Of a stretch of 64,000 nucleotides of DNA, positions 13,975-61,889 are shown one piece after another (position 1 is the first letter of the stretch; each line of letters opens with the position of its first letter). Origin of the DNA: Nannobrachium achirus. Taxonomy: Eukaryota; Chordata; Actinopteri; Myctophiformes; Myctophidae. The position numbers and the translations under genes were made by a program. The notes under the pieces are model-generated. The model saw nothing but the letters and a program-made list of their open reading frames with translations. It ran no database searches and was not told where the DNA came from. Where the stretch lies: assembly GCA_963921795.1 (NCBI GenBank), contig OY997642.1, forward strand, positions 32,810,693 through 32,874,692, written 5' to 3'.

Positions 13975-16900
13975 CTAGTTCCTCTCCTGCACAAATACAG
14001 TCTCCTGTGGACAAAGCCCTGCCTCTTGCAATGTGATGTCATAGTCCAAGTGGGCAAGCTTCCGTCTGGGGAAGTTAGTGACAAGTTCAAAGCGTTCATT
14101 GGGGTAGCCTTTTGACTGGACGTGTCTCACCAGCGCCTGTGATAGGAGAAAGTAATACAGTGATTGTAAGAAAGATTGTTATAACAAATCATACAAAAAA
14201 CATGAATTGACCACCATGTATATAGTCAGAGAATTTTATCAGAATAATGTCAAATCTGGGAATAAATTCCTTACCAAGAAATGTCTTCACCAATGTGTGT
14301 GTCTAGGAAAAGTTGTCTAAAAAAGTTTGAAATTCAAAAATCCTAGGAGAATCTTTTACAGCTGCTGAAAGTTGGGCTCAGGAAGAAAATACACAGAAAA
14401 AAAATCTTCTTTAAGTAGCATGTGAGGGGTCTAACTAGGTGGTTGTCATGATTCTGAATCCATTGCAAGCATTTGTTTTGCACAAACTGTGAAAAGTGAC
14501 GTCTCATCACTAATCCATCGTTTAGTAGTATTGTGTATAGAAAGTCAATGGGAGCCCAACTTTCAGCAGCTGTAAAAAATTCTCATAGGAATTTTGAATT
14601 TCAAACTTTGTTAGATGTGTTACTAGACACCTTTTACACACACATTGGTGAAGACATTTCTTGGTAAGGAATTTTAAACAGATTTCATTAATATCCCGAC
14701 TAATAGAGCAGAAGCACTGATAAGAATAGATAAGTTGTCGTCTCACCATAAGCTTGGCTTTGGATGACAGAGCAATCTGTTCTCTCTGCCCATCTGGGTA
14801 ACGAAGCATCAACCTTGCCTTGGGACCTAGGATTAAAAATACAAATAAAACATCAACATCATAGAGAAACAACAAACAGTATTTGTTCAACTACATGTGG
14901 ACTCATACATACAAACAGGGACACTGGGGCTTACCATTATCATCAAGGCAGTCAGAGGGTTTGCTGTCACTGGCATTGGAAGGACCAGCACTTTGGGTTG
15001 CTGCGTTACAGTGGTTCTTTCCAGAGTCTGGGGCGGGTGGAGAACGACTTGGGCCTGCAGCGGAGGAGGGCTCTAGGTGGTTCTTTTTGCTCTCCTCTTT
15101 TCTGTGGCTGTGGTTGTTTTCTTTGTGTGGGGACTTTCTGTGCTGTGTGGGGGGGCTGTCGGGATGGAGAGGCTGAGGGGCCGGGGCCGTGGGAGGGGCT
15201 GGGGCGTGTCTGACTGAGGAGATCTTCTCCTCCTGGGCATCTGGCGTGTCGTCGTCAGAGCCGTCGACGGAGATGAGGCCCTCGCTGTCCGAGAAAGGCT
15301 CTGCGTCCGAGTCGTCCTCCGAGCGCGGGGAGTCAGGGGCCTCCGCGGCGGAGCCGGACTCGTAGTGGGTCTCCTGTAGAGATGCTCGGATGGCTGCCTC
15401 CAGCTGGCTGTCCTCACTGGCATCGATCAGACTCTCCTGAGACAGGAGGACAGACAGTATGCAGATGTTAAGAAGCTGAATGACAGCAAAGTGAAACAAC
15501 ATAGAGAGCCTTTTTTAAATCTGTCCCAAAAGCGTAACTAAACGATGAACACTAGCTTAGGTGAGCAAAGTGTGTTCCATGTAGACAGACAGGCACAGAG
15601 CTAGACAACACAACATGGGTTGTAAACTATTATGGAATTTGTCTCATAGAAGTACAAAACAATCGAAGAAAAAAAGTAAAAAACAATACATGTTTTTACA
15701 TTAATACTAACTTATAACCTATCCATGGCATATTGAAACACGTTGGGGAGTGGCGTGCTGACCTGTAATGTCACCCCCTTGCGAATTGTTATTTTACATC
15801 ACACTCTCCTCGTTCTTCTTTTCTCCAGTCTCCATCAACAAGAAAACACCATACACCTTGACTGTCACTATAGCTCCCCCTTGTGGAAGGATCAGAAACT
15901 CACCAGCCAAATGCCAATATCAACCATTTTCATTTCTCCTAGTACAATGACTGAGGACATTTGTCATTTAAACCAGTGGTTCCCAAACTTTTTAACTTGT
16001 GACCCAAAGAGAAATTAGACGTTTGCCTTGGGACCCAAACTAGTGAAAAATTATTCATGGAATTTTAGATTTGTTTGTTTTAAAATGTATGAAATCATTT
16101 ATTTTTAAATATTGAATAGAAAATGTAGACCTTTTTCATGTAGGAAAAGAAAATGGGATTTTTATTTGAGTCATGACCCATAAAAATTGGTCCGTGACAC
16201 ACGAATGGGTCCTGACCCAGTGCTTGTGAACCAGTGATTTAAATGAGTCACTGAGGAACCACTCACCTCCTAAAACAAGGATATATTGAGTGTTGGAGTA
16301 AATGCCAATTAATGCTGCTGACGTGTCATTTCACATCATTGATCCTGGCATCAGCATTTTGTAGAGAAATACTCAGTAGACAAGGTTTTATTTGCCACAC
16401 TAATCTCTTCATATCAGAACAAAGGGATTTAGGTTTAAATAGGTTCCCTTTAACTTTTTCAATTGCAATTTCCATTTTAGCGATTGCGGTCATCATGTTT
16501 TTACAGAATGCCTCCTTTGGGCCGAGCTGAAGAGGGTCAGTGAAAAAAAACATTTGGAAATCTCATAGCATCACACACTACAGGATAATCTTAAAACATT
16601 CTCTAAAACACAAAAGGATTTTATTGAGATTATCGGACTGCGCCTCATTTCATCTCACGTGATCACAAAACATGCGGAAACAGTAGCAGAGTAGCAGACA
16701 TAACGAACGAAACATTAAACTTCCAATGGTGACTGGAAAGACAAGTTATAGACAGTGTTCTTGCCACATGACATCCAAGCTGTCCTACAGGTTGATTTGG
16801 CCAGTCGCCATGCCAAAAGTCCACTTATTCACTTGAATCACTTCACATCTGTCTCCTTGTAGAACGCCTTTCTTTCTCTCTGTCGTATGTGAGTGCCTCC

Positions 16901-25582: not shown

Positions 25583-28500
25583 GGGGGGGGGGGTGATAGA
25601 GAGAAGGGGATACGGTGAGTTTTGCTCAAACGTAGTGTGTGCGGACTGTTGCATTTTTATTTCTCATGACATCATAAAATCGCCGTAACTACATAGGAGT
25701 CTGAATCGAGATTGCAATCCATTTCCGATTCATCACTCAGCACTAACTACAGAAGTTACGCTGTAAGCGAAGTCGCCGGAAGTCTCGCGATACGCGAGAA
25801 TCTTGCCTAAGCTATGGAAACAGTAAACACAGCCGTGTTCTCATGGATTACTGCATGTGGTGGTCCAACAGCACGTCGGTGTCTTTGAACTATGAATAGA
25901 CGATTGATAAAGAAAAAAACAATTGTGGAGCTCCTGAAATAAGCGATTTTGGGAGAGTCGCACAAGCCCTATTTTAGCTGTGAGGAGTTGTCGTCAAAAC
26001 TCGGATGAGGAGCAACAATGAGAGAAATCCAAACCAAATCCAAATGTATGACAAAAGGCTCATTTAGGGGGGATATGTTTTGGTCAGAATTTCCCCTCTA
26101 ATAACCTGAAGGACTACAGTCTGGATGTCATTGTGTCTGACCGACCACAAGGTCAGACACACCAGAGACAAGGTCTCAATGACCTTGACATTTTTGCTGC
26201 CCCCTACTAGACCTAATCATCAAATGGTTTTCTGAAACTGGAAAAGCATTGACCCAGCCCCCATGACCACAGATCTGGAAAAGCATTGACCCAGCCCCCA
26301 TGACCACAGATCTGGAAAAGCATTGACCCACCCCCCATGACCATAGATCTGGAAAAGCATTGACGCAGCCACCATGACCACAGATCTGGAAAAGCATTGA
26401 CCCAGCCCCATGACCATAGATCTGGAAAAGCATTGACCCAGCCCCCATGACCACAGATCTGGAAAAGCATTGACGCAGCCACCATGACCACAGATCTGGA
26501 AAAGCATTGACGCAGCCACCATGACCACAGATCTTCCGCAAATCTCTTGGGTCCTTCCCACTTCTCAGTCTCTGCATCAATGGATGAAATAGTGGCTCAC
26601 TATAACACCTCATCCGCACTGCACGCGAGCGAGTGACACAACGTCCTGTGAAATAGTGTCCGCATTTACAGCATCGGACATTGCTCAACCTTGCTCAAAT
26701 AGAGGCTCCCGAGCGAAAACAGGAGGGGTGGACGACATCGCGACACAACGCGTTGTTGCTCACGGTAGGCCAGGACGTCCTCATTGAAACAAATGTACCG
26801 GTATTTTAATGAGATTTCGTCGCTCGCGTCGCGTTGCATCGCGGGCAGTGCGGATGAGCTGTAACACATCCCTGAGCAGTAGGAGTGTAACGATACATTT
26901 AATAGCGATACGATATGCATCACGATACATGGTTGACGATACGATACATGGACTATATTGGTTCATTCATGGCGATACAATACAATATGATTCAATGATT
27001 TTGAATCGATGTAGGAACTATTTAGCAAAGAAATTAAATCTGTGTGAAACGTGTCAATAGTGCTGTTTTTTGGGATCTATTATTATGGCTATAATTGTAA
27101 GTAAACACTGTAATTCTCTACTAAATGCATGGACATTATATTCAACACATTATTATGGACAAAGCCTCACCTTGAAATGAATATAGAGATTACACACATT
27201 TATCGATAGACCAAGAGTAGCTATATGGAATGTTAAAGTAATTAGACCCCTCTTTTTCATTTTCCTTCTTAAAATTGCTAAATACAAGTCACAAAATAAT
27301 ACTTTGTTTCTATACAAATCAATTATTTGCATTGCAAAACTATACAAAGCCAAACAAATGTAATATTTTGCTTTTGCATATCGATATAGTAGATCATTGC
27401 AAATTGAAATCGATTTTTCAATTCAGTTACATTATCGTTACATTCCTACTGAGCAGTGTTTTTGACCTCCATGACCCTGTTATGATGCATGAGGTGAGAT
27501 TGTCCTGGAATGACGTTCAGACACTCACGGCTCACTGTGCATAAACTGGCTTTCCATGAACTTCAAAAGGGTCCCTTAAAGATGCTCAGTCTCAGGTCTA
27601 CTCCAACCTAACAAATAAATAAACAAACTTAAAATGTCCCCTTCTTTGACTATCTGTAATACCAATCCAATTGATATTTGCTTAACCCGGTCTTCTACCC
27701 TGAGCCATCTCAAACAAGCAAAAGTGTGTTGCAATTGGGTGGGTCATGGAGTTAAGGCCAGGCCAGACAGACAAACCAAACCATTTGTAGACCTCTTGCC
27801 ACAGAGCCATGCCATAAAAACAATCCAGTGACAGTACATGGAAAAACAAGGTTTAAGTAATGAAAGGACACCGTCCCAACTTTAAAATCTTGGATACAAC
27901 AGGTGAGAAGGGAGAACATCATCTTACTCTTCAGGAGGAGGACCTCTGCTGCTTGAAGCTGCTGTCGAGCCGGAGCTGGTGCTGGGCTCCTCTGCAATCC
28001 CTCCTCCATCTAAAAACATGGTCACTGCCATCTCTAAATTGTTGTTACATGCCTCTAGCATGTGTTGTCCTACGCTCTCTGTGGCCCCTGGAGGAAACAA
28101 AACGTTATTTTTCTATGCACATATTATTTAAATTAATACTATAAATACAATATACAATAAAAGACTATACATAGAAACTGACACCATTCACAATGTATTT
28201 GTATATATTATGTAGGCAAGCCCCCACAAACCCAAACAAGTCCATAATGCTCAAATAGCTTTGACCGTGGCTTGGTGAACAAGGTTCCACAATATTCTGT
28301 ATTACATTATTTATTAGGGGACTAAAAATGGAAGTTGATCGCTGTGCAAACAAATATTCAAGGCATGTTGTATGTATGTCGGTTATGTATGTGGTGAGTG
28401 AGTGCACAGTCCATTATCATCAGTTTCCTGTTAACTGCGCATGTCCGTATCACTTTCCCAAGTCTTGCTCTACAAGCAGCCCCCATCTGGCTAAGCCATT

Positions 28501-31462: not shown

Positions 31463-34400
31463 TCAAAAGCGGATAAAGGTAGCGTCGATCTGGCGTACGG
31501 TGGGCAGGGCCAACATGATCTTTCGCCGGTACTGAGGGTCCTTCTGTAGCGGGTTCCTCTCGAGATAGACCGTCTCCAGAGATTTGGCATTCTTCAGCTC
31601 ATCGAGATCTGACCAGTTCTCGATCTGATTATCATTCATCTGCGAAAAGACATGACTAGTTTTTATCTTTGCTTAGGTCTGACATGTCCAAAGTCCGGCC
31701 CAGGGGCCAATCGTGGCACGATGGCAGATTTTATATGGACCGCAGCTTCCTTCCTCAAATGTATTATTTATGGCCTACCAGTAGACTTCATGGGAAATTC
31801 ATACATTGAGTTTTGTGTTTTGAAATTAACATGGGCAGATAGACCATTTCTCAGTAGAATTCGCAAGGATTCCTAACTGCTTGTTCCTTGTGTCGTTTCA
31901 TTCTCAGGATGTGAAAGGAAGGCTATTTTACTTTATTTCTTATTTTTGTACGTACCTTTTAGGTAGATACATTGGGCCATTTGAACAATTTACTGGGCTG
32001 TCAATATAATAGCAATGCAGTGCATGCACAAGAGAACATACAGAAAAAAGGCTCAATTCAGATTGTCTCAGATTTATTGAAGGGATAGCCCCTTGAGATG
32101 CAGCATCTTATTTTTGAGGGGGTCCCATATTGGTTTTGTTCACAGCAGTGACTTTCATTTGGCCACAGTGCCACCAAAAGACCATTGATATTGCACCGGA
32201 ATTAAATCAAATTCTTGTAATGCGATGCATTTTTATGTGACTTTGTTATGGTCCAAAGGTACAGTATGAGGAGATGCAGTTGGCCCCAAACTATTTTCAA
32301 ATATGGCCCCCTTTTGGACACCCCTGGCTTACAACATGTAGCATCAAGTATAATACTCCCACTTTATAAAGTATAATTCTCCCACTTCATACTACAAATA
32401 TACATACCCAGAATTCCTGTAGCTCTGTTAGATGGCTGATGTTTTCAATTTTCTTTACTCGGTTGGCTGCAATGTCCAGGGTTGTGAGCTTTTTCTGTAC
32501 AGGCATAACAATAATGTCATTTAAGCACGCTGCAAAATAGCCTGTTATACGCTTTGTGCATGATGGTTAGTGCACAGTATCGATTAGTAGAAGAAATGTA
32601 AACAAATGGACCATTAGGGGTCCATTTTACAGTGGCTGTGGCAGAGCCCTTTCAGAAATAGGCTTTTGTGTTGTGTTGTGTTGTGTTGTGTTGTACTGTA
32701 CTGTATGACTCACATTGTTCTCCAGGCCTTCAATAACCTCTATGCCATTGTGACTCAGATAGAGCTCTCTCAGGTTGCACAGGCTCTGTAGGCCCTCAAT
32801 TTTAGTGATGCGGTTACTCTGGAGATAAAGACACACATATAACACACATTCAATTAATTTGTCATGAATATAATAATAACTTTCGTCCCCAAGATAATAT
32901 TATTTTTTTGCAAGTATTGCTTGCCTTGCTATTGCCAGTGAATTTGTGAATATATACCTGGATACTTAAAACGGTCAAGTTGTGCAAGCCTTCTAGTTGC
33001 TGAAGCTGCGTTATCTTGTTGGTGCCAAGAAACAAACTTTGCAAAGATGTGAGCCCATCCAAGTTCTCTATTACCTATGAACAAAACAAAAAATACAACA
33101 ATACACATACAAACATTATTTAATATACGATTCAAAATGCTCTTCTGTGCTTTAGGTTTTATTTGTCCTAACCGCATCCAAAATGTGGATAGCAACAACT
33201 AAAACCTTTCATTCTATAACTGATTTACGGAAAGCTTCAAAGGATCATTTCTCTCGTCTCACTCGGATGCGGTTGGATCCCAGCTCCAGCATTTCCAGGC
33301 CTGTGAGGTGATCCAAGTTGGCAATTGTGCTGATTTTGTTATGTAGCAGGAAGAGCTTCTTCAGCTGAGTCAACCGCTCCAGACCTTCCACCTTCCTCAG
33401 GATGTTGAAGGACATGTCAAGCTGCCTGTCAATCAAATGAATCAAACATATCGTCACCGTCAGGCGGAAAACTCTTAAGTCCTCCAAAACAGTTACTTTT
33501 CAGGAAATGGAAAACATAATCAGTGTTCCAACTTCCAATGGATCCAATGTTATTTAGTCACAAGCTCTTGTTGATACATTTCATTGGTTAAATATTTATA
33601 AAACCCACAGACAAACCCACTTTCACCAAAAGACAATTCAAAAATAGACGGTCTAACAGCTCACAACGCACTGGTATTCTTCGTTACTTTTGTATGACAC
33701 TGTAGTATGAAGAAGCAGGGCACTAATTATGGAAAAACACAAAAAGTTGAAAAATGGAGATACATGGTTTCTGTCAAACAGCAACGATATCCATCCATCC
33801 AGATTAGTAGAAGACGTAAAAACACACAACCAAAGATCAATCTGTCGTTATCACACCATCTCTATAATGTTCTCTGAGCTGTGATGGAACCACATAAAAT
33901 GAGGAGAGGAATACAAAGTGTTTTTTGTTCAGTAGTCCTACAGGACACATTTCAGACTCACTCCAATTCTGTGAGGTTCTGCAGGCTCTCCAGTTTGCGG
34001 ATCTGATTGTCATAGAGATCCAGTTCCCGCAGTGAAGTCAGACTCTCAAGGTTCTCTATCTTTTTGATGAGATTCTGTCGTAAGGATAATGTCTGCAAAA
34101 ATACACACAAATAAACATAAAACAAATTTCAAAAATCTAAACAAATATTGATCACTCAATACTGTGTCAAGTTGTTTTGGGGTAACCCAACAGACAATTA
34201 TAAACCATGTTACGACAAGAAAGGAAATCGGCCCAAATACAAATTTGTTGCCAATGTCAAAAACAAAAGCAGCAACCCCAAGACATTTAAAAACGTAAAA
34301 CATTAATAGCCCATAACTTACTTTAGCCTTCTGTAGCACCTCTAATCCTTCAATCTTTCCAATTCGACAGTGAACAAGATCAACATCCTTGGAACAACAG

Positions 34401-36048
34401 AGACAGACATCAATATTAAACACACAATGTTGTAGTAACATGTACTATTTCATAAACTGTGAAAAGGTTTAACCACTTTTAAAATCATAACAGGTGACTA
34501 ACAGAACAGCAGACCTTCCTAAAAGCCATCCACTCACCTCTTCATCAGGGTCGAGGGTTATTGTCTCCATATCAACAGGAGACTCTTCGTTACCTAAAAT
34601 GGTAACAAGAATAAATAACATAATTCTGAGACGTCATTATAGCCCTACGTTCACATATACACCAGTAAGACGCCCTAAAGGGCGAGAACTGACCTCGCCC
34701 TAACGGGGCCGGACCAGGCCTTAATTTTCGGGCCCGTTGAGAATGCTGAGCTGTTCGAGTCATCATTGTTATGTCAGAACAGGTCAGCTATATCCTTCTG
34801 CTGAGCTGGACGAGTCATCACTGTGATGAACAGGTCAGTGCAAATGATTCTGTCTTGGCCATTCATTTGCATCATTGTGATGTCAGAACAGGTCAGTGCA
34901 AATGAATTCTGTCTTGGCCATTCATTTGCAACATCATTGTGATGTCAGAAGAGCATGAGGTGTGAGACAGACGGACGGATGGACGGACAGACATGAGCTG
35001 GAGGGTTTCATACTGAATAGCGATATTCAGTCGCAACTACACAGCACTGACACACAAATATTGTACAGGCAGGCAAACGTACTTGTGGTAACGGGCTTAT
35101 TAGGGTCCACGTCGCCATTGATGCTCTTCCTTCGGGTCTCATCATCACCAGACTCCTCTGATTCACCCCTTCGGTCCACTAGACAGGAAACAATGACAGG
35201 AAAGGTTTCATTTAAAGACCTGTTATAATGTGTGACACGTTTAGCTGGAAATTGAGACAGAGGTGATCTCAACTGCAAACCTGACTACTTTCAGTGGAAT
35301 GCAAGTCCTTGCCATCCCCACATAAAAGCCCCTTATGGAAACAAGCCTAAAAACTTTCTTGTGGTCTTTATCCTTTTAGTTGACCTTGTATCAGTGAACC
35401 GTACCGTCCTGTACTTTTTCCTGTGCAAACTACTAATAAACTATTCAATCAATCTCAATCAAAATGTTCAAATAATTTCAACACATTTAAAAAACGAGAA
35501 CAGCAAAAGAAACATGGGTCTATTGTCTTAGAAAGGTGTCTACAACATTTTTAATATAAAAGAAATTGCGCTATCGTGAAGGAAATTTCCTTCACGATAG
35601 CTTGATGAAGCTAACAATTGCTAACACATTAGCTATATCATATCTCTATTTCAATGAAAATTACTCTTGAAACTAAAAAGAAACTAGAAAATGTGTTATC
35701 ACACATTTGACAACACCATATAAGCAACCTGATCGTTGTAATGATTAGGGTAGGTTAGGCTCAGAGAAATTAGCCATCGATTAGTAGGATATGACAAATG
35801 CATAACATTGTCATTAGCTAACGGGTGCATGTTGTTAGCATATTAGCTAGTAAGCCAAGGATGAAAGTATGGCCAGTAAATAGTGCAAGTTAGCAAATAG
35901 AAGATTATGTTTTCTTTATTTAGGTGTATGTTCGACTAGTTTAATAACGGTCCATCAACTGCCACAACAGTGAACGGAGGCACCGCTGTTATGAAGGAAT
36001 TTCCTCACCTTCCATGTCTTGAGGCTCTCCTACAGTCAGGGAAGCCAT
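31463..36048 (-). CDS. ppp1r7: Protein phosphatase 1 regulatory subunit 7 (SDS22)
   Basis: Leucine-rich repeat protein that binds PP1 catalytic subunits and controls their assembly and nuclear or mitotic activity. Coding exons: 36048-36009, 35178-35083, 34593-34538, 34387-34322, 34092-33962, 33425-33263, 33074-32958, 32818-32714, 32494-32408, 31639-31463. They total 1,038 nt, 345 aa, all in frame; the mammalian protein is 360 aa. The N-terminus is acidic (ESEESGDDE, SPVDMETITLD). About eleven 22-residue SDS22-type LRRs follow, for example LRELDLYDNQIRKLESL, LKKLFLLHNKISTI, LEMLELGSNRI, LRELYLSHNGIEVIEGL. It ends in the LRR cap (ETVYLERNPLQKDPQYRR, RQIDATFIRF). Start MASLTVGEPQDMEG is the only ATG in the first exon and lies about 50 bp from a hAT insertion. 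Confidence 0.96.
34740..35035 (-). repeat. Inverted copy of the 8995-9400 repeat, in ppp1r7 intron 2
   Basis: On the minus strand it reads 'cagtatgaaaccctccagct', (gtcc/gtct)n, 'cacacctcatgctctt', then three drifting copies of 'gacatcacaatgatg' and 'caaatgaatggccaagacag'. Same order as at 8995-9400 in the opposite orientation. Confidence 0.75.
35366..35461. repeat. Short dispersed repeat (second copy at 29427-29530)
   Basis: Shares 'tccttttagtt.accttgta', 'cagtga', 'tttttcctgtgcaa' and 'ctactaataaa' plus a 'caatcaatc' tail with the other copy. Probably the 3' end of a truncated non-LTR element. Confidence 0.55.
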
Positions 36049-36499: not shown

Positions 36500-36826
36500 G
36501 GTGGCAGAACATCTTGTAGGCATAACGCTATTTGTCACAAGGGGGCGCTAACAGCCGGCCCTCCAACAGTTTGATGCAAAGGTCCTTAATTTACCAAGTT
36601 GAAAATAAAATGTTTGACTAAGTAAAAGTATCAATATTGCAATGTATAAATACTCAGTTACAAGCAAACGTCCAGGATTCAAAATGTACTTGAGTAAAAT
36701 TAAAAAATATTGTCATAAAAATGTATCAAAAGTAGAAAGTAGGCCTACTCATTATCCAGAATGTCCCATTTCACAAGTTTTCAAATGTATACATCTTTTT
36801 TGGGGTAAAATATCAGATCTACAAGC

Positions 36827-37668
36827 ATAACATAGATAATGTAATATCAAACTGGGAGAAGGATCTGAAAACTAAATATGAAATAGCTGACTGGAAGGCG
36901 AGCATTCTTTCCAGCAGTAAAACATTTTGCTGTAACAGACTCAAGGAAACTCAGTACAAAATTAAAATTCTACATAGACAACATAGGACACCATACATTT
37001 TAAATAAGTTTGACCCCACAAGATCTCCATTATGCTCTAAATGCAAAGATAAAACTGGTACATATATGCATTGCTTTTGGGACTGTCCCGCAATCTCCAA
37101 ATTCTGGTCCTCAATTTCCAAAGAGATAAACAATATGTTTAAATGTAATATCAAGATGAAACCAGGTTTATTTCTGCTTAGCCTTCCAGACCGGCCCATA
37201 TCCCCGAACCTGAACTCATCTAATGTTATGCTTCTCCAAAAATTGCTAGTTCTACTGGCCAGGAAATGCATCCTGTTTAATTGGATTATGGATAAACCAC
37301 CAACAGTGCCAGGATATAATATCTTACCCATGGAGAGAATGAGTGCTAGGTCTAAAGGCAATGAGAACTTCTTTACCAAAATATGGAAACCTCTACTTCA
37401 TCACTTACCACCAATAGAGGGAAAACCAGACATGTCTGTGGACTGTTGTGACCCCTTTCTTTCTATCTGTGACCCCTTTTTGTTTTGTTTTGCTTTGTTT
37501 ATTTTAGTATATTTGCTTTTATTTCATGCATATTCTGTCGCATTTGTTTTATGGTGTGTCCGGTTTTGTTAAACGTGTAGGTGGTGTTTGTAAAAAAAGG
37601 GGGAAGAAAAGGGACAATGTTATGATACATGTAACCTGCTGTACCCAAATAAATAAATATGAAAAAAA
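36827..37668 (+). mobile_element. 5'-truncated LINE (L1/Tx1-like) with open ORF2 C-terminus
   Basis: An uninterrupted reading frame runs from about 36841 to 37572 (roughly 243 codons), resembling the C-terminal part of an L1-type ORF2: NWEKDLKTKYEIADWK, a Cys/His segment CSKCKDKTGTYMHCFWDCP, then LARKCILFNWI. A T-rich 3' UTR, AATAAA repeats and a short A tail end at 37668. It is bounded by a 12-bp target duplication agatctacaagc (36815-36826, 37669-37680), and the target is itself a copy of the palindromic repeat. Reverse transcriptase and endonuclease domains are missing through 5' truncation. Confidence 0.9.
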
Positions 37669-43159: not shown

Positions 43160-45790
43160 ATGTATTCATCATTTACCATCATTTTGTTGTGCCACTTATC
43201 GTGGGGTTTTTCAATTGGTAAGTATAGCCTAAGTAGCCTATTATTGTACTGATTGCCCTAATAATTAGGGTCTTATTACGACGTGTTGTTAACGTGATTT
43301 GTATTTTCTTTTTAGACACGGTGATTCAGATCCAACACACGGGAGTGGTCGGCAGGGCGGAGACCGTAGACCAGGTCCTTGTCAACGGAGCGTCTCTACC
43401 GAGCAGAAGCACGGAAGTCTCTGATATTATAAAGACGCTGTTGACCGGTTCTCCCCTCAGAACGCTCGAGACTGAAGTGATCGATGACGATGAAACAAAC
43501 AGGACTGCAACAACACCAGGTAAGCAGCATCTCATCAGTGGTGGGAAAAGTACGTACTCGCATGTTTTACAAGTATCAATAATGAAATGTAGAACAACAA
43601 AATATAGGTCTACTCTGTTACAAGTAGAGGTCCGGAATCCAAAATGTACTTGAGTAAATGTAGGCTACAGAAGTAGCCTATCATTAGTACTAAAATGTAC
43701 CAAAGGTAGAAAGTAGACTACTCATTATGCAGAATGTCCCATTTCACAACTTTTCAATTGTATTAAAATGTATAAATATCTTTTGAAAATAGCAGATCTA
43801 CAAGCTCACAATGCGTGACGCATTATAGATCTTCTATTTTCAAATGGCCAAAATGTATAGGGCTGAAGGTGGCTAATGTATGTTTAGTAATAATAAAATA
43901 AATCTACAAAGATACTAGTAACTAAAGTTGTCAGAATGTAGTGGAGTAAGTAGCTACAATCCGAGATGTAGTGGAGTAGAAGTAAAAGTATTGGAAATTG
44001 GAAATACTCAAGTAAAGTACAAATGCTTCAAAATTGTACTTAAGTATAGTATTTGAGTAAATGTACTTAGTTACTTTCCACCACTGCATCTCATTTTGTG
44101 GCTGCCATCAGTTGATAGCCTGCCCTAGAATAATGTGCAGTTTGATTTAGACGTTTATTATTCCACAGACAACCACACTTTTATCCGTTTGCGTGAATGC
44201 AAACTGGACGGGTCACAGGTGCTTTTGACCGACAGTCTCTTCTACAACGGAGCGATATACTTGATTTTGGACCGAACCACAGACACATGGACAGCCCAGA
44301 GACCCCAAGCAGTACCACTCAAAACAAGATGGGACCAGGAACCAGAGCGCACCAGAAAGGAGAGGATTCAGCTTCTGGAGGGATGCTCTAAGCTTATGAA
44401 AGTGTTGATGCTTTCTGAAGACAAAGCAGGTAGTATAGGTATATCCTAATATTCTTTCACATTTCACTGTCTAATTCTGCACACCATATTCCCTAGCAGG
44501 GGTCTTCAACGTTTTCAGGCCAAGGACCCCTTAGTTGAGAGAGATGAAGCAGGGACCCCCACAACCTCTTCATAGATTCCATATAGTTTCATCATTTGAC
44601 AGCACTATCATCAGTGTATTTTGGATTCATTTCAATTTTTTGTTTTCAGATATTTAACTACTGAGCCATCATTAGCTAATAAACTTGACCTTTTACTCTG
44701 TACTTAGTCTGCTCTTTGTCCCCTCTACACCAAACCTCTTTGCCGAAAATAGCCCATCTACAAGCTCAAGCTTGTTGATCTGCTATTTGTGGCTACTCAG
44801 AATATGGACACTAGGGTTCAAGTTGTTAATATAAAAATGATTGGAAGATTTGGAGGACCCCCTGTAGTAACTTTGAGGACCCCTAGGGGTCCCGGACCCC
44901 CTGTTGAAGACCCCTGCCCTAAAGAGTCATGGGAAGAATTCTTTATTCACCCATCCACCACCCATGCATTGATTCAACTCTGTCTTGGAACGAATTAGGG
45001 CACACAATCGTAGTTTACAAGTTTCTCCAGTCTTGTTGGAGTTGGCCATAAGCTCATGAACATAACCAATTGGCTGGCCCTGGGGTGTATATGTATATGC
45101 TAAACAGTGAAAATGTATAGCCATTTTACAGACCTGTTACCCCACATTCTGAACTGTGACCTGCAAAACTAGTTGTATACAAAGTTCTATAGTTCTATAT
45201 GTTTATTAATTGGGAATATTGTCTTAGTTCCACAGATGGCTATGCCTGCTATTTTGGTACCAATCTTGGCACTGCTGGCTTTTATTGGGCTAATCTTGGT
45301 CAGCCTACTAATCTCTAAAAAGCGAGGTGAGTGAATGTGATTTACCTTTTTAAATTAGTCTTATCTGTAACTATAAAACTGAATAGTTATAGCCCCGCCC
45401 AAGACAATTTGATTCACTCTATTGTTCTATAAAGTCAACAAACATAAAGAATAATCTGTAACTCAAATAATTGGGGTGTTTTGCTTTTGGACTCTTTGTT
45501 ATGATATTATTGACCCAGTCCTCCCCTGTGTAATAACACAAGCTTCATTATAAACATGTTGTGGTATTTGAGGTCACATGAAGTCAAGTCTCATACCATG
45601 TGAAAAATGTTCTGTATGGTCATGGGACTTTCTTTTCTGCTTCCAGGAGTGAGACACCCTGGAGGTAAGCACAAACACTCATTCTCATTTTGTTAGCCGT
45701 TTACAGTTAACAGGCATGGGTGAAGATTGATAGAAAATTAAAGATTAAATATCCACCTCACAATAATTTAACCACAGGGTGTGTGTGTGT

Positions 45791-45821
<31 letters not shown>

Positions 45822-46187
45822 GATCTGTCACATGGGTGTGCAATTCCTGAATGACTGTCCTCAATCACATTTTTATTATGAGTTAAAGTGACTGTGCGAT
45901 TTCACCCAGTGAAGTGGTAGTGTGCCCGTAGTAAAATAATTCATACTTGCAGTCAGATCTGTGAGGCGGCGTCCAAACATTTGCGACAGCTATCGTGTCA
46001 CGTGGTTTTTTGTCTCTTGCAAATCTCTTGGCCAAAAGACAGCCTTCGGTTGAGCAAGAGACACGGCAATGACATGAAACCACGTGACTTACATTGAAAA
46101 TGAATTGGACCCCCCCTCATTCTCAAACGATACAGAGAAGATATCTCACGCATATGTGTGATTGTGGCCTGAGGCTGTGGCAACTCA

Positions 46188-46262
<75 letters not shown>

Positions 46263-46358
46263 TTCCTCACAGGTGTCATTGGCTCAGTTATACACTATCC
46301 TCAGGATATCACAGAACTGCATCAAGATGGAAAGGGCTATGGTTACCAGGCCTTGTAA
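43160..46358 (+). CDS. MHC class I-like single-pass membrane protein without an alpha3 domain
   Basis: Six exons: 43160-43217, 43316-43519, 44169-44429, 45228-45326, 45647-45664, 46273-46358. All introns are phase 1 with GT/AG; total 726 nt, 241 aa. Signal peptide MYSSFTIILLCHLSWGFS. Exon 2 (about 68 aa, alpha1-like but short, no Cys) begins DTVIQIQHTGVVGR and has sequon NRT. Exon 3 (87 aa) resembles MHC-I alpha2: RECKLDG and LLEGCSKLM give the disulfide pair, YLILDRTTDTWTAQRPQAV matches the conserved strand and loop, KTRWDQEPERTRKE the helix. Exon 4 is a membrane segment (AILVPILALLAFIGLILVSL) with KKR stop. An 18-nt exon follows, then a tail ending GYGYQAL. No Ig-type alpha3 exon was found in intron 3. 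Architecture and length resemble PROCR or ULBP-type proteins, but orthology is not established. Function unknown. Confidence 0.8.
43536..44086. mobile_element. hAT-like element in intron 2 of the MHC-like gene
   Basis: Starts CAGTGGTGGGAAAAGTACG, ends TTACTTTCCACCACTG, exact 8-bp target duplication catctcat (43528-43535, 44087-44094). The interior has 'gtacttgagtaaatg' type repeats in both orientations and the GATCTACAAGCTC palindrome (43785-43846). It begins 16 bp after the donor site of exon 2. Confidence 0.92.
44497..44916. mobile_element. hAT-like element in intron 3 of the MHC-like gene
   Basis: Starts CAGGGGTCTTCAACGTTTTC and ends GTTGAAGACCCCTG (inverted). Flanks 'ccctag' and 'ccctaa' may be a partly decayed duplication. 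A copy of the GATCTACAAGCTC palindrome sits inside (44745-44790). It fills the place where an alpha3 exon would be expected in a classical class I gene. Confidence 0.8.
45780..46260. repeat. Microsatellites in introns 5 of the MHC-like gene
   Basis: (GT)n followed by a G run at 45780-45822 and (TG)n at 46190-46260. The second ends only 12 bp before the last exon of the MHC-like gene, overlapping its polypyrimidine tract region. Confidence 0.9.
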
Positions 46359-51418: not shown

Positions 51419-51498
51419 CACGGAATTAACAGGTTAATGAAACGTTGTTTAAATTAAAGTTGTGTTAATATGGGCTTGTGATCTTTCGTACAGTTGCC

Positions 51499-54400
51499 AT
51501 GGCTCAGTTTGGATTTGAGAACGACATTCAAAGCATCATGAAGCTGGACATGCCGATCACCAACGCACCCATGCCCAGGTGGCAGAGAAAGGCCAGCTCT
51601 TCAGGCTCAGCCCCGTTGAGTAACAGTAGCAGTCTTACGCCAGGGAAATCTGGTAACAAGTCGCAGAGTATCTCAAAAACGCCTAGCAAAACACCAAACA
51701 AAACGCCAAACAAAACCCCAGGTAACTTGCTCACTGTAACTCTGAGAGGGGCTACTGTGACAAATGGAGGGTCCATTTGGTTACATGTGTGCACTGAGTA
51801 AATGCATACGTTAAAATTGATTGTACTCACATTTCATGGATGTGATTTTGAACGATTCTTTGTTCCTAGGTAAAAATGTGAAATCTACACCATCCAAAGT
51901 AGGGGGGGACCGCTTCATTCCTACCAGAAATGGCAAGCAGATGGATGTGGCAAGCTTCCTACTTACAAAGGAAAATGAGCCTATGGAAACAAACGAATCC
52001 ACAGCTTTGGCAGTAAGTTGGGTTTTATCCCATTGTGTTTGCTGCTCATATATTTTCAAAGACCGTTTGTTAATAAAGTTATGTGATCTTTGAAGGAAAA
52101 CCGGAAAGCTTGGTCTGTCGCATTTAATGGCTGCAACATTGAAGACTCTAAGATCTTGCACTTTGGAGGAAAGCCACTGAATGCTCCAGAAGGTAACGTA
52201 GTTACAGGTACTCATTCCCTTTTATATGGATATAGAATCAAGAAGCAGGGTTTTATGATTATACTTTCTCCAATTCCACAGGTTATCAGAACAACTTAAA
52301 AGTCCTCTACAGTCAAGGTTCGACTCCAGGCTCCTCCAAAAAGACAAGATACATATCTTCGGTTCCTGACAGAATCTTGGATGCTCCTGATCTCAGGAAT
52401 GATTTCTGTGAGAATTTATCCCTTATGTTCAATAACGTGCATTGTCAGAAACGTACATGGGCAAAAATGCCCCTGAAATTTGTCGGAGGTGGCAAGAATT
52501 GCCCTTTTCTATGTTATGCTAATTTAAGTAAATCTCCCAAGATGCAGCAGGCATAATGAGGGGTACATTAATATTAAGATGTACAAACTCTTTGGCCATT
52601 CATTATTTACATTATCTGTATTATTTATTTTGCCTGAATTCTTGTAGATCTGAATCTGCTTGACTGGAGCAGTCAAAACATGCTTGCAGTGGCTCTTCAC
52701 GACAGCGTCTATCTGTGGAATGCTTCTGCGGGAGATATCACGCAACTGATGAAGACGGAGAATCCAGAGGAGTACATCTCATCTGTGTCTTTCACCAAAG
52801 AAGGCCACTTCCTAGCTGTTGGCACAAGTGACTGCAAAGTTCACGTGAGTATGCCATACAACAAACACAAATCGTTTAAATTTGTTCAGGATCACATGAC
52901 AAGATTAATTTGCTGCTCTCCATGTTGCCTTATTTTTCTTGCTTAGTTGTGGGATGTAGCAAATGAGAAGCGTTTACGCACCATGGTCGGCCATTCAGCC
53001 AGAGTTGGAACCTTGAGTTGGAATGAGCATGTATTGTCCAGGTAAAATTTAAATGTCTACATATTGAGTTGTGGTTGCCTTACAGTTATTTGGACATGGT
53101 GTAAAGGCCTGTCTCCATACTGTCTCCAGCCAACAAACCTTTCCTCAGAGGTCCGGTTAAACTACAAAATGATGTCACTCGCTACTTCTGAAAAGCATTA
53201 CCCCAAATTTGAGTTTGCAAAGCTGCACATCAAAGTTGGAACTCTCTGAAAAGTTTGGTGGTCGGAGACAGTATGGACAGCCCTTAATGCAAGCAAATGA
53301 TTCTGCTCTTGAGTGAGCACACAACATTGTTCTTGGTTATTTACTGTAATCTTCCTTGTAGTGGCTCGAGAACAGGACACATTCACCACGATGATGTAAG
53401 GGTGGCAAAACATCACATTGTTACATTGAGCGGCCATTCCCAGGAGGTGTGTGGCCTGAAGTGGTCCCCTGATGGGAGATACCTAGCTAGTGGAGGCAAT
53501 GACAACATGGTGTATGTGTGGCCTGGCGTGGCAGACGGCAACAGCAACGGAGGCCAACCCATCCGCTCCTTTAATCAACACACTGGAGCAGTCAAGGTCA
53601 GCAAAAACTTAAAAAAAAATGTTTAACCTTGAATCTAAGCATTTAAGTGATTGCAATTCTTTAAAAACGTTTAAGTAGCTCTATATTCCCATGGTAATAG
53701 TCCTGTTCAGGATTTAGAAAAAATGCATCAAGTCGGGATACACTTGATCCAATAAGTAGAGAAGATTCGATGCAGAATCTGATTAGATGAAATTGGTGAC
53801 CCACCAGAGAATTATTTTAAGTGTACATCTGAATATAGAGACTACTTAAATAATTAAAATGAATTTGAGGAACAAATGCATCTTGTAGCCTACTGCTAGT
53901 CTTTTAAATGGCTATCAGTTAAATGAATTTGTGTTGTAATTTCTCCTCCCTTAGGCTTTAGCCTGGTGCCCATGGCAGTCAAACATTCTTGCATCTGGAG
54001 GTGGTACCAGTGACAGATGCATCCGCGTCTGGAATGTCAATAGTGGATCCTGCCTCAGTTGTCTTGACACTCAATCGCAGGTAATGGGACACTCCTACTT
54101 CAATGCTGCAAGTCTTAACGCAATCTTGAAAGTGAATTTAAAAGGTTTTTATTTGATGGCATATCTGGGACATGGGTAAAAGTCTGCATTTTGGCAATTT
54201 ATCTCAAAATGACTCCTTGATGAAAGCATGTTTGCTTTGCTGACTAAGCACAATTTACTGAGAGTGTGTCCGTTTAAGTCCTTTTGCAGGCCAACTTGGA
54301 GGCTAATGGTTTTCCAACTGCAGATTTCAATGGAAATGTTTTCTTGGTTTTGTTTAAATAAGTTGGAATTTTTGTTGACCAGAAAAACCTTGTCTGCATA

Positions 54401-56932
54401 AAACATTTAACTGTATCACGAAGCGAGATAACGAGATGAATAAATGGACAGGTGGCTCCCATAATTCCCCATTTCTGTCTGAAACTATTAGTTATTGCGA
54501 CCGTCAGGTCGCAGTTTAGTATCAAAACCTCCACCGGCCGTCCGTCCGTCGGTCACACGTCACACCTTTGCCCTGCTCATATCTCCGCATCAGTATGACA
54601 TCACACTGCTGACATCAGTATGACATCACACCATATATGGAGGGATGTGTTGGTTATCTCCATATCTGGAGATTCAACCTTCAACGATTTTGACATCTTG
54701 TTACTAATCTGTCGGTAGATAATGCCGGTCTTATATAAGGGTCATTTGTGTATGGTGTGATGTCATACTGATGTCAGCAGTGTGATGTCATACTGATGTC
54801 AGCAGCTATGTCTCTATATATGGAGTTATATGTTGTTCGTGTCCAAATATGGGGCTTGTGAGGTCAGACTTGGTGAGATTCGTCGGTTATCTCCATATAT
54901 GGAGGGATGTGTTGGTTATCTCCATATCTGGAGATTCAACCTTCAACGATTTTGACATCTTGTTACTAATCTGTCGGTAGATAATGCCGGTCTTGTATAA
55001 GGGTCATTTGTGTACGGTGTAATGTCATACTGATGTCAGCAGTGTGATGTCATACTGATGTCAGCAGCTATGTCTCTATATATGGAGTTATATGTTGTTC
55101 GTGTCCAAATATGGGGCTTGTGAGGTCAGACTTAGTGAGATTCGTCGGTTATCTCCATAATATATGGAGGGATGTGTTGGTTATCTCCATATCTGGTATT
55201 GAGATTGATAGGAACTACAGTGTATGCACGCTGTGTGGCTGTTACAGCTATGGCTTTCCTCTAGCTCAGGGGAGTCCAAAGTGCAGCCTGAGGACACATT
55301 TTATACAGCCTGCGGCTTCGTTCCTAAATTGTATTATAAACCACCTGCCAGCATGTCAAACAAGAATATTTATTATTTTCTGAGTATAATTCAGGATTCC
55401 TTGTTCCATACTGAAGGGATCCAAGAAATGCTATTTTATTGTATATATATTTTTTTACCTTGCATGTCAGGTTACATTTGGTAATGTGAAATAAGGTGGC
55501 GTTATTTGAGTTTTGATAAATAAAATTGTTTAAATGCGATGCATACATTATGTACTGTATGTGACTTATGATGCCTCGAGTCTTCGACCGAAGGAGCTAG
55601 TCGGCCCTTGGGTGTTTTAATATTTTCTAATGTGGCCCCCTTAGAAGAATGTTTGGACACCCTGAATGATGAATGATGACTCTGCCTTTCAGATATCATC
55701 CCTGGTGTTTGCGCCAAATTACAAGGAGCTTGTGTCTGGCCATGGATATGCTCACAACAACGTAGTCATCTGGAAGTACCCATCGTTTTCTAAAGTTGTG
55801 GAACTCAATGGTAAGTTATGAACTTAAATTTATTGTCCCAAAACATTTACTGCTTTCTATCGTTTTAGCCATTTTATTTTGATATCAGGGGGTGCATACA
55901 AGTAGATAAAATGTCTTGGTGATTTCTTAAATACTATTTACAGTAACACTGCTAGCCCCCATAAGTCACATCTACACGTGAAAGATTGCGGTGCATCTTG
56001 GGAATGGTCTTGTGTCTAAAACGACACACATAGAGCCACTTGTATGAAAATCATTAAAATCCCTAAAACGAGGAGAACATTTTAACAAACCTTTTATTTT
56101 CTCCATCTCTAATAACAATCAAAAGTATGAATCCTTGTTGTAAAAAAACAAAGTTGTCCTTTAAGAGAATAAGTAAAAAATCAATGTGTAGTTTGACTGG
56201 AAGAAACTTGTATCTCTATTTCTTAAAGGCCCGCTGTCAGCCCTGAAATTATTATAGTATGATACAGTAGGTCATGTGGTCTCTCTCCAGTGTGCATACT
56301 GAAATAGTCTGAAACTGTCTCAGTGTAATCTGCCCAACAACAGCTGACCAGTACAGTAAGTAGTCATACAGTCAGGCTATACAGACAATTAATTTGATTG
56401 GCTTATAATTGCGCATCCCCACAATGACATCATAAAAATATTAACTTGTTTTTTAAGATGGAACTTAAAGTGACAGTAACCCTTTAGGTGACAGGCCCCC
56501 TTTAGTAGCTTATCTACCAGCTCGCAATGTATGAAGTTGTGCTGAGCTTGTACATCTGTTTTTGAGAATGAAGTGGTCTGTTTTTAATAGCTTGTCCATT
56601 GGAACAAATTTTCTTTTCCCTTTCCTGAACTGTTTTGTGTATACAATGTTTTCACCCAGCAGAGAGACTATTGCAATATCAAATGGGTCAATGGAAACCC
56701 ACAATGCACTTGTTATGTTGTGGTCTCAGCAGATGTAATTCTCTTTTTAGGCCACGAGGACCGAGTTCTGAACTTGATTCCTAACCCGGACTGCTCTGCT
56801 GTTGCTTCTGTCGCTGGGGATGAGACCGTACGCCTCTGGAAGTGCTTTGAGTTGGACCCGATTAGAAAGAAGAACAAGGACAGGGTTACCAAATCTACCA
56901 CTGGTGTCCTAAATCACCACACCATCAGATAA
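51499..56932 (+). CDS. cdc20: Cell division cycle protein 20 (APC/C activator)
   Basis: Substrate-recognising activator of the anaphase-promoting complex and target of the spindle checkpoint. Coding exons: 51499-51721, 51870-52012, 52096-52192, 52282-52407, 52648-52844, 52947-53041, 53362-53596, 53955-54080, 55693-55810, 56751-56932; 1,542 nt, 513 aa, in frame (human 499). Start [10 protein letters not shown] is the family start. Seen in order: [14 protein letters not shown] basic repeat, C-box DRFIPTR, KEN box (TKENEP), MAD2-binding [21 protein letters not shown], seven WD40 blades (for example [63 protein letters not shown]), and the C-terminal Ile-Arg tail that binds APC/C. The mammalian CRY box has Thr in place of Cys. 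Intron 9 contains a ~264-bp tandem repeat. FZR1/CDH1 is excluded by the N-terminus and the MAD2-binding site. Confidence 0.97.
54495..55195. repeat. ~264-bp tandem repeat (two full units) with a conserved head, cdc20 intron 9
   Basis: 'tatggagggatgtgttggtt' recurs at about 54638, 54901 and 55164. Between them the units are nearly identical, each holding two 'gtgatgtcatactgatgtcag' sub-repeats. The left end (54495-54560) has 'attgcgaccgtcaggtcgca', 'tttagtatcaaaacctcca' and (gtcc)n, the same head as the repeats at 8995 and 34740. Confidence 0.85.
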
Positions 56933-59084: not shown

Positions 59085-61889
59085 TTAGACTTCCTTCACT
59101 TTGCCAAGGACAACTTTGCCATTAGTGCAGTGGCCATTAGTGGAGTGGTGTGCTGACCCATTCTCCAGCTGCTTGCCATTGGGCATCACTTCGACTTGGC
59201 GTGGTAAACCATTCTGCTTGGACTTGGGGTCCTCCAAGTGGATAGGAAGGCGGTTTCCCTTTATATAGGCCTGTACCCAGAAGTGAGAGAAGAGGAAGAA
59301 AAAGAAGGTTCCATATATCCAGATGAGGTGGATCCAAGCAGGATTTTGGTAGTCGCACTTCTCCATCCAGTAGTACTGGCTGATGTGAAGAGAGACCAGA
59401 ATAAACTGGGTCTAGGAAGGGAATAGGATAATAGTGTAGAACAGAAATGTTAAGAATAATACATTATGCAATTCAGCTTTGAGCTATGAATGGTACAACG
59501 ATGCTGCTCATTTCTGCAACTTAAAAATGTATGCAAAAATAGAGAAAAGAGACATACCAGCTGGATTGCGGTCATGTACTTCTTCCACCACAAGTACTTC
59601 TGGAATCGAGGTCCCGCAGCAGACAATCCATAGTATGTGTACATTATTACATGGACCATTGCATTCACCATGCAGTGGAAGGTGCCCATTCCCGATGCTG
59701 GCGACAGAAGGAAAAACACCCATTTATTAAGAGACCAATTTTCACAGCCTATTCTGGTGATGGGAAATCCCGTTCATTTCGGTGAACAAAACATTTCGTT
59801 AACGGCAATGATCCGTTCAAAAGATTCGTTCACCGTTCATAGTGCGATCTCCCCTGTGAAAACCACTATCGCGGGAGCGTTTTCATTACGTCGAGCGTAC
59901 AGCCGGCCTCCCGTCCTGTGTGCCGGGGGCTATTATTTGGAGGGGAAGGGGGTATGAACGAAAGCGAGGATTTGAACGAATCGTTCACAAGTCTTGCAAA
60001 TGATTCGATTTTTAGGAACAAATTACTCATGAACGACATCACTAGCCTATTCAGATTCTCCCCTTACACCTACATGTATGTTTGGCTAAGTATTTTACAC
60101 AGACACACACGATTACAATAATTCAGGACAAAAATGGTGGATTTGAATGATCAGTAAAACGCCCCCAAGAAATGGTTAACCTTTGGGTGGAAAATAAATA
60201 AATATAGTAAGTATAACCAGACAATAAAATCAATGTTAACACATTGCAGACTAGAAATCATTGGACCTTTCTAGTTTATGATAACGATGATGTGCAAAAT
60301 GTTTATGTACTTCTGATAATGAATATACTTCCCATTTCAAGCTGTCACTGCTTTTCACTCTTTGTCAGTGTATCATTTCACACAAAGTCAATACATGAAA
60401 ATATCCAGCTTACACTATGTTTGTGTTGCATGCCATTATACATAATATTGTGGGAAGCTTACCAGGAGTCAAAGTGATACCCCACCACCAGGTCCAGGGC
60501 ATAAAGGAGTGGTGGAACACATGGAGAAATGTGATTTGGCTTTGTTTCTTTCTCGCCACAAAAAATACCTAGAATGAGACGTTACAAAGCTCAGGTTACT
60601 TTCTATAGTCTATTAAGTATGGAAAATGAATGCAATATATCTTTTGACACAAACAGAAAACATACTTACTGTGTCAAGGAGTTCAATGTATTTTGAAAAA
60701 TAAAAAATCCAACACACTCGAATCATCTGGGTAAGGAATGACAAAGATCAGTCAGGCAACAATAACTGCTATTCAATGTTTTAAATGAAAGCTTACATTT
60801 TAACAAAACTTCAGGTTGATAAAAACAACACACTTTAGATTTTTGGGTCACAATGGACACAGTGAAGGAAATCAATCCTGAGATCCATTATCAAGTTGGT
60901 ACAGGAAGTGTTAGCTTACCCTTAGAGCAACTGGACTGCTAGAGGTGTCAATAAGGTCACATCTCCAGGTAAAGGTGGTGCCCCATCCAGACAACAAGTA
61001 CTGATTAGCAAAACACACACACACATTATAATACATACATATCAAAATGTGTGTATGTATGTACACACACACGCACATAATATACATACTGTATATGTAG
61101 ATAGATAAATATCATACTCACCTCACACACTATGTATGCATTCAGTGCAACCATAGAAAAATTATAGACAATCATGGCCGTGTTGAGACGAAAGGGCTTG
61201 CGGTTGGCCATTAGGCGAGGCCCAACATACACAGAAAAAAAAACATAGGCCAACAGGATGGTGGTCATCTCTAGGGGGCTCTGCATTAGAGGATAGTTTT
61301 TCACCCTGTCATCTGAAGACAAAGTTAACACACGTCAGTATCTCCGCGGCAAAGGTTACATGAGATCTATAAATGAACAACACAAGAAGCTTAAAGGACA
61401 ATATTCTTTTTTTACAACAAGGGTTCATATTTTAGATTGTAATTAGAGAAAAGAAAAAGTGAGAGTTCGTTCTATTGTTTTATCACATTTACCGTGCTAA
61501 AATGTGGGGCATGCGTACGCATGGGGGTATGCGTACAAGTGGCTAAATATGTATTTTTAGACACAATAAGCCAGCAGTTTCTTTATTGCTATTTACAGTA
61601 ACACTTCTAAAGGTTGCGTTGTATCTTGGGAATGGGCTTATTCTGTGTAAAATTACATATTTAGCCACTTGTACGCATGCCCCCAACCACTGAAATAAGA
61701 ATCTCTAAAACAATAGAAAGAAGTAAATGAAATAATTTTAATACTCATCTTTTATATTCTTTTTTACAATCTAAAATATGAACCCTTGTTGTAAAAAACT
61801 AAAGTTGTCCTTTAAAGACAATACTCACCAGTTCTTTTCAGGATATAGTCATGCAATTCTAAACCCTTTGATACGACTTCTCGCAGCAT
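59085..61889 (-). CDS. elovl1: Very long chain fatty acid elongase 1 (ELOVL1)
   Basis: ER membrane condensing enzyme that extends saturated and monounsaturated C20-C26 acyl-CoAs with malonyl-CoA. Coding exons: 61889-61829, 61312-61122, 61000-60920, 60726-60670, 60568-60463, 59697-59558, 59411-59085; 963 nt, 320 aa, in frame (human 279). Start [19 protein letters not shown]. Family marks: [45 protein letters not shown], the catalytic histidine box [39 protein letters not shown]. Hydrophobic stretches fit seven membrane spans. The extra length is a polar C-terminal tail rich in Asn/Gly/His, ending GKVKEV, a KxKxx-type ER retrieval signal. Teleosts have elovl1a and elovl1b; which one this is cannot be told here. 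ELOVL7 is the nearest alternative. Confidence 0.95.
59755..60044. mobile_element. hAT-like element in an elovl1 intron
   Basis: Starts TGGTGATGGGAAATCCCGTTC, ends GAACGACATCACTA. Exact 8-bp target duplication gcctattc (59747-59754, 60045-60052). Contains repeated 'cgttca' and 'gaacgaatcgttc' motifs. Confidence 0.87.
61395..61811. mobile_element. MITE with TTAA target duplication, elovl1 5' intron side
   Basis: TTAA flanks at 61391-61394 and 61812-61815. Arms of about 50 bp: left AGGACAATATTC..TTTTTACAAC and 'aagggttcatattttagatt', right their complement. Ends 13 bp from the donor side of coding exon 1. A partial relative occurs at about 55960-56165 in cdc20 intron 10. Confidence 0.82.

Follow-up and report, generated by a model that had tools for sequence, protein, structure and literature searches.

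What kind of gene encodes a membrane protein of the MHC class I type that has no immunoglobulin alpha3 domain, and which part of such a protein would do the work? The question is raised by a gene on the forward strand (43160–46358) of a 64,000-nucleotide stretch of the Nannobrachium achirus genome (contig OY997642.1; hereafter the window). The original prediction placed this gene between ppp1r7 and cdc20 at a locus unlinked to the MHC, and saw in it an alpha3-less class I-like gene, perhaps of a lineage of its own.

Gene structure and the alpha3 site

Read from open frames and splice borders in the genomic sequence, the gene has six exons (Table 1) joined by GT/AG borders throughout, with every intron in phase 1 and a spliced frame of 241 amino acids. 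The donor of exon 3 is ambiguous: GT at 44430, 44433 or 44439 would keep the frame in each case, the two alternatives putting the end of the exon at 44432 or 44438, and the product would have 241, 242 or 244 amino acids, respectively. The gene looks real and is apparently intact.

The alpha3 exon is missing from the genomic sequence. Intron 3, where it would be expected, is 798 bases long and its longest forward-strand open frame has 81 codons, so no intact alpha3 exon fits; the other four introns contain no open frame longer than 61 codons. When five of the seven forward-strand frames of at least 30 codons in intron 3 were scanned for an Ig alpha3, none matched any Pfam family at E ≤ 10. In the corresponding control, C1-set was found at all four of the other class I places that were scanned in the genome (1.7e-12, 2.5e-11, 3.4e-9, and 0.0022, the last below the curated cut-off in a slice that was cut short). 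Six phase-1 exons, an alpha3-less class I-type membrane protein (given the MHC_I match of its alpha2 exon, described below) and the absence of an Ig alpha3 exon had all been predicted, and all are borne out by the genomic sequence.

Intron 3 also holds a dispersed repeat of ∼420 bases (44496–44917) with perfect 15-base inverted ends, which recurs at no fewer than 39 places elsewhere in the genome with 87–91% identity (40 scored of 6947 candidates). Its appearance is that of a short, non-coding DNA transposon, sitting at the would-be alpha3 site.

Table 1. Coordinates of the gene and its neighbours in the window, with the basis of each assignment.
Feature	Position	Strand	Basis
ppp1r7, flanking gene	31463..35284 (approximate)	-	One exon against PPP1R7 chains, 3e-37; LRR families; ends by eye
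Exon 1: start codon and signal peptide (MYSSFTIILLCHLSWGFS)	43160..43217	+	Signal peptide by eye
Exon 2: alpha1-position exon, short (68 codons), degenerate; sequon N81	43316..43519	+	Position, phase, length
Exon 3: alpha2 domain; Cys98 and Cys160, Glu97, sequon N89	44169..44429	+	Pfam MHC_I, PDB class I chains, shuffle test
Intron 3: site expected for alpha3 exon; contains dispersed repeat	44430..45227	+	Frame scan, repeat search
Exon 4: connecting piece and membrane span; Pro186, Ser200	45228..45326	+	Span by eye
Exon 5: 18-base tail exon	45647..45664	+	Gene model
Exon 6: tail with H motif, tyrosines 222/236/238, C-terminal YQAL (last four residues), stop codon	46273..46358	+	Translation; motif from PMC6769792
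cdc20, flanking gene	51469..56932 (approximate)	+	Pfam CDC20/Fizzy WD40, 2.8e-25 (fragment); CDC20 chains, 1.4e-39; ends by eye

The two ectodomain exons

By sequence, exon 3 is the only exon recognisable as MHC. With 261 bases it has a near-normal alpha2 length, and it retains the cysteine pair and the class I core. Homology to class I alpha2 is given by its match to Pfam MHC_I (1.5e-7, which passes the curated cut-off; profile positions 93–169 of 179), and a PDB search matched it to solved class I chains with a best value of 1.2e-4. Against alpha2 exons from four other places in its own genome it beat all 1000 shuffles in four of four cases. The clear alpha2-like exon with a cysteine pair that had been predicted is thus confirmed. 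Glu97 directly precedes Cys98, whereas Gly stands there in the four class I exons read elsewhere in this genome; in HLA numbering, Cys98 would correspond to Cys101, which would put Glu97 at position 100.

Modelled alone with AlphaFold2, the alpha2 exon gave a weak prediction (mean pLDDT 50) of four strands and then a long helix, an alpha2-like order. A Foldseek search of the PDB with this weak model returned 533 matches at E ≤ 10 and none at E ≤ 0.001, and no class I molecule is named among the best 50 of the 533.

Exon 2 (204 bases) is a shortened exon in the alpha1 position, in which no homology to class I alpha1 was found. Its score against three alpha1 exons of its own genome was matched by 766, 757 and 370 of 1000 shuffles, whereas a comparison between two of these alpha1 exons gave a score above every one of the 1000; the one Pfam match in exon 2 is to an unrelated family (0.13, below the cut-off). 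Against four alpha2 exons, between 30 and 127 of 1000 shuffles reached its score, a slightly better result that we do not read as signal. The AlphaFold2 model of exon 2 alone, also weak (pLDDT 54), has three strands and a short helix. We count neither single-exon model for or against an MHC fold, both being too weak for that. Because its scores against alpha1 exons are like those of shuffles, exon 2 is called alpha1 by place, phase and length only. What stands of the predicted short alpha1-like exon is its shortness, position and phase; the alpha1 likeness itself is not seen in the Pfam and shuffle comparisons, and a full alpha1-alpha2 platform is unsupported, exon 2 being short and not recognisable as alpha1.

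Tail motif, lineage and locus

The most telling part of the gene is a motif in its last exon, of which the original prediction made no use. Residues 214–223 read GVIGSVIHYP, the codon of the first glycine being split between exons 5 and 6, and a genome search with the tail exon matched only itself. This stretch agrees at every position with GV(I/L)GS(I/L/V)(I/V)HYP, the tail motif reported in 2019 for the sixth teleost class I lineage, H, in which alpha3 is lost and alpha1 shortened (PMC6769792). The authors of that paper know of nothing like this tail motif in other proteins, and the legend of its figure 4 covers 25 teleost species plus bowfin and spotted gar. A near-normal alpha2 with a short alpha1 is described there for teleosts outside Characiformes, Siluriformes and Gymnotiformes, and further H marks include an acidic residue at position 100, a serine in the span (304) and, in part, a proline (290). 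Among the fish papers surveyed, the term "H lineage" occurs in PMC6769792, PMC7853315 and PMC6970960.

The gene in the window carries the tail motif, has no alpha3 exon at the genomic level, combines a short exon in the alpha1 position with a near-normal alpha2, and has the acidic residue. Pro186 and Ser200 lie 14 residues from each other, which is also the distance between the published Pro290 and Ser304; this spacing is weak by itself because it is found in one of six possible pairs (three prolines, two serines). The full match of the tail motif is what leads us to identify the gene, very probably, as HAA of the teleost H lineage, a likeness judged by the published motif and described marks and not by residue-level alignment with H sequences. 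The suggestion of a lineage of its own holds in that H is a separate lineage; it is not a new one, having been described in 2019 (PMC6769792), and the gene extends a known kind to a further fish.

The predicted place between ppp1r7 and cdc20 proved correct, both being the nearest recognised genes. The four best PDB matches of the ppp1r7 exon are all PPP1R7 chains (from 3e-37); for cdc20, five many-repeat WD40 proteins rank above the CDC20 chains, without any single stretch of theirs passing. In pike and in the salmonids studied, every H region is flanked by TOX and PPP1R7 (PMC7853315, 2021), and cdc20 is unnamed in the portion of that text consulted. PPP1R7 adjoins the H-type gene here, as in pike and salmonids. 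TOX was not found near it by an HMG-box family search, which can miss split exons: the 70 HMG-box matches in the genome include five on the window's contig, the nearest ∼7.7 Mb off.

Other features of the window were also recorded. Between ppp1r7 and the H-type gene, a 278-codon forward-strand frame (36736–37572) matches zf-RVT weakly (5.1e-5, under the curated cut-off) and probably belongs to the end of a LINE-type element. A minisatellite at 26238–26534 (37-base unit, 8.1 copies, 94% matches) has reverse-strand open frames running through it, and a tandem array at 54631–55196 (262-base unit, 2.1 copies, 97% matches) lies, by position, inside a cdc20 intron. On the reverse strand, 914–1754 and 13975–15514 hold transferrin-family exons (9.6e-22 and 0.0018) and then a UBX-domain gene (1.2e-14), the latter with a weak UIM match (0.0052, below the cut-off) and perhaps ubxn7. 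Downstream of cdc20, also on the reverse strand, is an exon of an ELO-family (elovl) fatty-acid elongase (59450–59773, 1.3e-15).

One strong copy of the H-type gene was found in the 1.66 Gb genome, a count that, like all copy counts from genome searches, is a lower bound. The search with the alpha2 exon returned the gene itself (1.3e-52) and then 11 weak places with E from 0.024 to 4.1 (17 candidates scored). These lie on contigs C4, C10, C24 and C262, and none is on the window's contig, in keeping with the prediction of a locus not linked to the MHC.

Possible function and comparison with known systems

An H protein encoded by this gene would be a small membrane glycoprotein independent of beta2-microglobulin. 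Pairing with beta2-microglobulin is unlikely because alpha3 is missing, and peptide presentation is unlikely because alpha1 is unrecognisable. The span and tail, more than the ectodomain, may do the work, because the tail motif has a ds/dn of 14.60 in other fishes, indicating purifying selection, and because some fishes have lost whole alpha1 or alpha2 domains and kept the tail motif (both from PMC6769792). The conserved tyrosine of HYP could then be phosphorylated or bound by a partner. We put this tail-centred mechanism forward tentatively, with a little less than even confidence. YXX-hydrophobic is a general sorting signal, and the terminal YQAL, which fits it, may act as one. It seems to us rather improbable that the remains of an MHC platform have become, in effect, a tail-signalling receptor in which GYGYQAL, with YQAL as the sorting site, forms a second C-terminal signal beside HYP so that the protein both signals and cycles through endosomes.

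The same gene could instead work through its ectodomain, with alpha2 engaging a lymphocyte receptor as a stress-type ligand, much as ULBP/RAET does with NKG2D. The cysteine pair and class I core kept in alpha2 speak for this, and the comparison has been raised in PMC7853315; it is nonetheless unlikely, given that fishes lacking a whole alpha1 or alpha2 retain the tail motif (PMC6769792) and that exon 2 here is unrecognisable. Far less probable is a decaying pseudogene. Decay would suit the degenerate state of exon 2 and the ambiguity of the exon 3 donor, but all six exons are open, with intact splice borders in a single phase, the tail motif is intact, and its purifying selection is published for other fishes (PMC6769792).

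Orthology to PROCR (EPCR) or ULBP, with a two-domain ligand-binding platform, is the least credible reading. The original prediction had likened the gene to these proteins, and the domain plan is indeed equal (two ectodomain exons, a membrane span and no alpha3), but nothing beyond this layout agrees. Such an orthologue is hardly to be expected because of the H tail motif, for which the authors of PMC6769792 give no counterpart in other proteins, and that paper reports EPCR for birds, reptiles and mammals. A complete recognisable alpha1-alpha2 platform was not found at the sequence level, where alpha2 is recognisable and alpha1 is not, and neither PROCR nor ULBP is among the best 60 of 232 PDB matches.

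We thus favour an H gene, very probably HAA, whose tail may be its working part. With it, a further fish genome has an H gene next to ppp1r7 that is apparently intact, in agreement with the published description. The question around H genes is what role falls to an MHC molecule whose ectodomain is wasted and whose tail is strongly conserved. In the tissues and species covered by PMC6769792, H transcription is low to medium, with its highest level in Atlantic salmon ovary; we found no functional study of the H lineage in the part of the literature on it that we surveyed.

Compared with known systems, the gene shares an alpha2 core with other class I genes of this genome, on C4, C10, C24 and C262, which are 27–39% identical to it over the matched part of the 11 weak matches. 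Unlike it, the four of these that were read in detail (L002, L005, L007 and L008) have a C1-set exon nearby (that of L005 below the curated cut-off in a cut slice), and three of the four also carry an alpha1 exon, as judged by eye. PROCR (EPCR) and ULBP/RAET resemble it in having two ectodomains without alpha3; likened here by description and not by alignment, they belong to other lineages (PMC6769792) and are not known to carry the H tail. The closest likeness is to teleost H (HAA), with which the gene shares the tail motif, the lack of alpha3, a short exon in the alpha1 position, a near-normal alpha2, an acidic residue just ahead of alpha2's first cysteine, and PPP1R7 next to it. It differs from published teleost H in that TOX was not found near it and that cdc20 lies on its other side.
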